From: an uncultured Spirochaetales bacterium | Lineage (GTDB): Bacteria > Spirochaetota > Spirochaetia > Sphaerochaetales > Sphaerochaetaceae | Direction of reading: 5' to 3' | Assembly (NCBI GenBank): GCA_944388965.1 | Contig: CALXKL010000005.1 | Coordinates: forward strand, 62,001-126,000 | Length of the DNA stretch: 64,000 nt | Shown: piece after piece, positions 34,969 through 35,651 of the stretch | How positions within the stretch are numbered: the first letter of the stretch is position 1 | Layout of the letters: every line of letters begins with the position of its first letter | Made by a program: the position numbers and the translations under genes | Notes under the pieces: model-generated | Database searches by the model: none | What the model was told of the DNA's origin: nothing | What the model saw: the letters and a program-made list of their open reading frames with translations, nothing else

Positions 34969-35553
34969 TCAGACATTGCTGCTGGGAATGGTCGAGGTCA
35001 CAGGATCTCCGTTCAGGTAGATTGTAATTGTCTTGTCAGCTGGGGAGAAACTGCCTTTCATGTGGTATGTGCCTGTGATGACATTTGTTCCACCGAGTTC
35101 CATGACGAGGTTGAAAGAGGCGGAATTCTTTGACATGTCTTCAGCTTCTATATTACCTGTGGTGTTGTAGCCACCCCAGAGTGTTACAGCCATACCCTTT
35201 TGTACTGCAAGCTTGGTCAGCTTGAAGCCGTTGAATGTGAAATTGACGGTCATCTGGTCCCCTGACTGTTTGGATACTGCGGAAACGGTACCTGTCTCGT
35301 TTGAACCACCAGTGTCACTGCTCATGATCTTCATCACATCCTCTTCCTGGAATACAGCCGGGAATAATCCAAGCGCAGTCGAGACGAATGCATCCCTCTG
35401 ATCTTCAGGCACTTCAGTGAAGGTGTCAGGTGCGGAATCCGGAATCTCAGGCACTGATGTTGACGGCGTGTCTCCCGGTGCAGGATTGTCTCCATCGCAT
35501 GATATTGCGAATACGAGCAGAAGCATTGCGATGACAATGAATGTCTTTTTCAT
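34969..35553 (-). CDS. putative lipoprotein, possibly phase-variable
   Basis: The 194-aa protein begins MKKTFIVIAMLLLVFAISC, a signal peptide with a relaxed lipobox (AIS-C, Cys19). A Pro/Thr/Asp-rich linker (about 20-50) and a beta-rich C-terminal domain of no recognised family follow. It should be anchored to a membrane by lipidated Cys19. GAGGG lies a few nt before ATG 35553; an upstream in-frame ATG at 35598 would spoil the signal peptide. The promoter contains a G8 tract. Composition is somewhat lower in GC than its neighbours. Confidence 0.78.
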   Translation of the reverse strand: MKKTFIVIAMLLLVFAISCDGDNPAPGDTPSTSVPEIPDSAPDTFTEVPEDQRDAFVSTALGLFPAVFQEEDVMKIMSSDTGGSNETGTVSAVSKQSGDQMTVNFTFNGFKLTKLAVQKGMAVTLWGGYNTTGNIEAEDMSKNSASFNLVMELGGTNVITGTYHMKGSFSPADKTITIYLNGDPVTSTIPSSNV

Positions 35554-35610: not shown

Positions 35611-35651
35611 AGGCTAGGGGATTTGCCCCCCCCGTCAAGGGAAAAAGTCAA
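35611..35651 (-). promoter_or_regulatory. lipoprotein promoter with a G8 tract in the spacer
   Basis: Read on the minus strand, TTGACG (35638-35633) is the -35. It runs straight into a run of eight G (35633-35626 as C on the plus strand), and 16 nt after the -35 comes TAGCCT (35616-35611) as a modest -10. A second TTGACT lies 8 nt further upstream (35651-35646). Changes in tract length would change the -35/-10 distance. The leader would be about 50 nt. Confidence 0.5.

Follow-up and report, generated by a model that had tools for sequence, protein, structure and literature searches.

An uncultured spirochaete carries a candidate phase-variable promoter, with a poly-G spacer, upstream of a lipoprotein gene

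The window (i.e., the whole 64,000-nucleotide stretch of DNA analyzed in this work) harbors, on its minus strand, a gene coding for a lipoprotein of 194 aa (34969..35553, with the ATG at 35553). The N-terminus of the protein, MKKTFIVIAMLLLVFAISC|DGDNPAP, carries a signal peptide with the lipobox FAISC, whose Cys19 is followed by DGDNPAP. A purine-rich ribosome-binding region, GAGAGGGAAAAG (35565-35554, minus strand), is located directly 5' of the ATG, and a GAGAGG-type sequence is also found upstream of the paralogues. On the same strand, an intrinsic-terminator-like stem-loop of 11 pairs, followed by CTTTTTGTTA, is present at 34942-34918; about one terminator-like match of such kind is also expected per shuffle, and it is the placement of the stem-loop just after the stop codon that supports it. 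Judging from this arrangement, the lipoprotein transcript is probably a single-gene one, ended by the stem-loop. The first-pass annotation described the product as a secreted lipoprotein without any known domain; this description holds, given the lipobox signal peptide and the absence of a Pfam family matching the 194-aa protein. Moreover, a PDB sequence search retrieved no relative of it, and its AlphaFold model (mean pLDDT 78) had no fold match in the PDB at E<0.001.

Upstream of the gene, and still on the minus strand, a -35-like hexamer TTGACG (35638-35633) and a -10-like hexamer TAGCCT (35616-35611; family form roughly TA[CGT]NCT) can be read from the sequence, the latter being located 58 nt upstream of the ATG. 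The last G of TTGACG is also the first G of a G8 homopolymer (35633-35626), i.e., the proposed slippage tract, and the 16-nt spacer (35632-35617) is made up of the remaining seven Gs plus CAAATCCCC. The core promoter layout is thus CCC-TTGAC-GGGGGGGG-CAAATCCCC-TAGCCT, where the tract adjoins the -35 hexamer and 9 nt separate its end from the -10 box. The spacing and the position of the G8 run proposed earlier (between TTGACG and TAGCCT, 16 nt after the -35) were confirmed, and the tract is indeed the only G or C run of eight in the window. A homopolymer of about eight or more nucleotides lying between -35 and -10, as in the porA/tp0126 type, is therefore present, and the two boxes are backed by their recurrence (see below). 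A second TTGAC, contained in TTGACT and located 14 nt further upstream, was discarded as the conserved -35, the orthologue having TTGCCT. A sigma-70 scan, whose yardstick is the E. coli consensus, called no promoter at this site because TAGCCT matches TATAAT at just three of six positions. In addition, dinucleotide shuffles of the window yielded 2.46 expected G8/C8 runs vs the single one seen, so that the tract alone is unremarkable, and the surprise lies in its placement. Since the run is unremarkable and TAGCCT is weak by E. coli standards, the case for this promoter rests on recurrence.

The sequence TTGACGGGGGGGG is present in four copies in the 2.1-Mb source genome, where the reversed pattern does not occur. 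The four TTGAC+G8 sites correspond exactly to the four CxGDNPAP lipoproteins of the genome (there are no other such genes), with 63-101 nt between the end of the tract and the ATG. A fifth site, TTGAC-G6 (C15:7525), lies upstream of a gene for a CDSDNPSPS lipoprotein. Genome-wide, a lipoprotein gene follows all the five sites with TTGAC and six or more Gs vs none of the 12 testable sites with TTGAC and four or five Gs. A TANNNT is found 14-16 nt after the hexamer at each of these five sites, the background in the window being 7/121 TTGAC at 14-17 nt. The lipobox-bearing signal peptide and the lipoproteins downstream of all the TTGAC+G6+ sites indicate that these promoters precede genes for envelope or surface proteins, and the lipoproteins may be surface exposed. 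The lipoprotein gene at C3:194365 is preceded by the promoter TTGACA-AGAGGGCA-G8-TAGCCT, and this promoter recurs, with its run interrupted, upstream of a paralogue on C7.

A leader-peptide profile built from six lipoproteins, which does not take the tract as its starting point, retrieved 15 lipoproteins at E<1e-3, nine of which were outside the query set. A G7, C7, or C8 run was found upstream of four of these nine, as in TTGTC-G7-CGAAACGGATAGACT (L183) and TTGAT-C8-GTTTTGCAGTTAAGGT (L184). Runs of eight or more are only about two dozen in the whole genome; according to our own arithmetic, about 0.02 genes with such a run would be expected in nine 200-nt upstream regions, and two were seen.

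Long G runs were also observed in other contexts. At L012 (G000:C1:205883-205892, minus strand), the lipobox of a further lipoprotein is immediately followed by an in-frame G10, a candidate translational on/off tract (LLFSCDGTTSTPDV-GGG-EITV). At L020 (G000:C3:19094-19102, minus strand), a G9 is embedded in an ORF resembling, by eye, a DNA methyltransferase (RFAPRGGGRILDTHLGSGSSRIA); since the frame closes about 158 nt past the G9, a phase-variable methyltransferase is possible. Lastly, G10 runs occur close upstream of other ORFs at L017 (G000:C2:154678) and L036 (G000:C17:5135), one of which precedes an ATG by 9 nt, the other a nucleotidyltransferase-like (by eye, RmlA-like) gene.

The distribution of this architecture was analyzed using the general pattern TTGA-N-G8-N-TANNNT, with the reversed pattern as a control. 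In the family, 34 distinct sites were found in 24 of the 139 genomes vs four for the control. In the class, there were 137 matches (a few of them overlapping readings of one site) in 72 of the 395 genomes, belonging to 35 genera, vs 11 for the control, i.e., an excess of about 12-fold. Some of the matches in relatives fall inside coding sequences (e.g., L065 and L066). By a simple lipobox rule, a lipoprotein gene lies downstream of 37 of the 72 sites with enough downstream sequence. The genome G350 harbors 20 sites, with small lipoproteins following all the ten that were read, and two further genomes of the class carry nine sites and one site. The tract reaches G18 in some other genomes, and the commonest spacing among the TTGAC-G8+ promoters is 15-16 nt. 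The spacer measured 15-19 nt in 101 of 120 sites, a figure biased by the choice of the -10 nearest to 17 nt; for the same reason, no weight was given to an apparent compensation between the length of the tract and that of the remaining spacer. The strand-swapped control, with C8 in the spacer, gave 26 matches vs about 25 for its reversed pattern and thus no enrichment; a lipoprotein follows 8 of the 12 C8 sites read, so that C8 is not a clean negative control.

Two further gene types were observed behind such runs. A gene for a secreted 'AYQLSPL...TY.P.GAGSA+VYTI' protein has an upstream G9 in three genomes (L031, G000:C10:53034; L063, G069; L142, G042), and TTGAC directly precedes the run in two of the three. 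At L238 (G394:C12:126324 and 127993), two neighboring small peptides with the double-glycine leader MNGFTEVSSLELEQIEGG each have the same TTGAC..G10..TAGGCT promoter and represent putative bacteriocin-like genes behind poly-G promoters.

The variability of the tract was evaluated at four syntenic loci of G014, which belongs to the same genus and is the nearest comparable genome; the assemblies are metagenome consensus sequences. The tract lengths in the source genome and in G014 were G8/G7, G8/G6, and G6/G8 at three loci, and G8/G8 at the window locus; no other indel separates the boxes in any of the four orthologous promoters. The aligned syntenic blocks (32.2 kb) contain 94 gap openings, i.e., about 0.02 per 8-nt stretch, and, by our own arithmetic, the probability of at least three changes in four tracts would be near 5e-5 if the tracts were ordinary sequence, a value that speaks to mutability and not to function. 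The same kind of difference was found between paralogues: near-identical promoters of tandem lipoproteins in G350 differ only in the run (G8/G9), as do near-identical paralogous promoters in G039 (G8/G11), and a G8/G9 pair in G159 has flanks matching up to the -10 region. Hence, in the consensus sequences compared, the length differs between species at three of the four loci and between paralogues elsewhere, and the window tract is eight in both. The comparison of related genomes that the first-pass annotation had proposed is in this way favorable for the three sister loci, but not for the window tract, whose single close orthologue likewise has G8. Any homopolymer would be expected to differ in length from one species to another, which is no proof of switching within a population. 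L005 was discarded as an independent second genome, its promoter sequence being identical to that of G014:C28.

Differences in the genes downstream were observed as well. At the syntenic pair G000:C2:146.7k and G014:C39:136.5k (L119 and L125), the promoter and the leader are kept and the lipoprotein body differs (191 vs 284 aa), which suggests that bodies have been exchanged behind a constant promoter-leader cassette; the same is suggested for L140/L153 in G039. In sister species, related lipoproteins (L116, G015:C43; L118, G012:C14; L117, G009:C27) have A9 replacing G8 in the region of the promoter, in the form CTTGCGTGG-A9-TA; the promoter and leader of L116 and L118 are nearly identical, and their proteins are unlike in length and body.

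Based on these data, we suggest that the G8 run is probably part of a slipped-strand phase-variable promoter of the porA/tp0126 type, belonging to a contingency repertoire of lipoprotein genes. The run would represent the spacer of a sigma-70-type promoter, presumably in use at TTGACG/TAGCCT, driving the monocistronic lipoprotein gene. Slipped-strand mispairing during replication would add or remove Gs within a population, each G shifting the -35/-10 distance by 1 nt (15 nt with G7, 16 with G8, and 17 with G9), and this change in box spacing would set expression by turning transcription of the lipoprotein gene up or down. Since each paralogue would have its own tract, independent slippage might provide each cell with a different combination of lipoproteins. 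By the yardstick of tp0126, G8 (16 nt) would be one nucleotide short of the optimum, with G9 as the high state and G7 as the low one; however, TTGAC-G8+ promoters most often have a spacing of 15-16 nt, so that the 'on' allele of this lineage may be a different one. A run of six, as in the G6 orthologues, may be too short for fast slippage. Loss of mismatch repair was rejected as the source of instability: MutS-type genes are present, and therefore no general hypermutability is implied. The earlier proposal of a candidate phase-variable promoter is partly supported: the architecture and the lipoprotein cargo hold, and the recurrence, the tract differences between orthologues and between near-identical paralogues, and the enrichment in the class extend well past what was proposed. 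The window tract itself, at 8/8, does not advance it, and the switching is inferred.

A different role of the G tract can be imagined, that is, a fixed promoter element (acting through the DNA shape of the spacer, or as a G-rich site for a regulator or an alternative sigma factor) that coregulates a lipoprotein regulon, the length changes being incidental. We consider this idea unlikely, even though the same TTGAC-Gn box precedes the paralogues, several of the 20 boxes of a single genome share the stereotyped form TTGAC-G8/9-TATCATGATAAACT, and the modal length is G8, as kept in the window tract. Indeed, a fixed element should hold its length and its distance from the -10, and these differ in three of the four orthologues and in several near-identical paralogues; the tract adjoins the -35 in some genomes and the -10 in others, and C runs, too, are found in the spacer before lipoproteins. 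The idea is weakened because neither the length nor the position of the run is constant.

It is less probable still, and in our opinion rather improbable, that these promoters are frozen remnants, duplicated from a phase-variable ancestor in a lineage whose G6-G8 tracts no longer switch at a useful rate. The leader and the promoter common to the paralogues would fit such a duplication, as would the paralogous promoter L177 with its interrupted tract, AGAGGGCGGGGGAGG, and the tracts of this lineage are shorter than those in some other genomes. Nevertheless, the tracts have changed since the split from the close relative, whereas the rest of the core promoter has not, and the tprL tract of Treponema pallidum, with 7 to 11 Gs, varies within isolates (PMC7864442). 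Finally, the chance occurrence of a G8 run near TTGAC and TANNNT, to which the lack of G8/C8 enrichment in the window and the matches inside coding sequences would lend some credit, is rejected as highly improbable on the grounds of the four exact copies, each of them followed by one of the related lipoprotein genes, the family and class counts with their excess over the reversed pattern, and the 5/5 vs 0/12 linkage to lipoprotein genes.

The phase-variable promoter that we favor has its closest precedent in tp0126 of T. pallidum, coding for an OmpW homologue, where a variable poly-G lies between -35 and -10 and expression is best at 17 nt (PMC7864442). In both cases, a poly-G separates the -35 from the -10 box of a spirochaete gene whose product is a secreted envelope protein. 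However, tp0126 is a single outer-membrane protein gene for which length variation was measured and reporter data were obtained, whereas a set of paralogous lipoproteins is concerned here, with comparative evidence alone. In Neisseria meningitidis porA, too, a poly-G lies in the -35/-10 spacer, and its length sets transcription (summarized in PMC7864442), but porA codes for a porin, at a single locus, in an unrelated phylum, whereas several lipoprotein paralogues are involved here. The tprE/G/J/L genes of T. pallidum resemble the present case in having poly-G promoters across a paralogous surface-protein family; however, the tpr tract is located just upstream of the transcription start, which in tprL is the fourth nucleotide after the tract (PMC7864442), whereas the window tract lies, on the basis of sequence, inside the -35/-10 spacer and not directly before a start. 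Therefore, of the analogies put forward in the first-pass annotation, the porA-type spacer tract stands, and the tpr genes are not the nearest relatives of this system.

The mechanism type is already known, and what appears to be new is its breadth, together with its deployment throughout a set of related lipoprotein genes of uncultured relatives. Poly-G promoter phase variation in spirochaetes has been documented mainly for a few outer-membrane proteins of T. pallidum. For treponemes, a survey of homopolymers counts G/C tracts and ties them mainly to pseudogenes, and the passages considered describe no spacer tracts before lipoproteins (PMC8049484); no description of such tracts was found in the literature searched. 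We give even chances to the broader idea that spirochaetes at large, including uncultured commensals, shuffle paralogous lipoprotein families by means of spacer poly-G (and sometimes poly-C) tracts, with as many as about 20 genes switching independently of one another in a single genome; this would be a class-wide contingency system and not a peculiarity of the syphilis agent. If this idea is correct, then poly-G promoter switching would be ancient and widespread within the class and linked to lipoprotein paralogues, including those of uncultured relatives; a ready list of loci would be available for tract-length counts in existing reads, and a consensus assembly would record just one of the several expression states of these cells.
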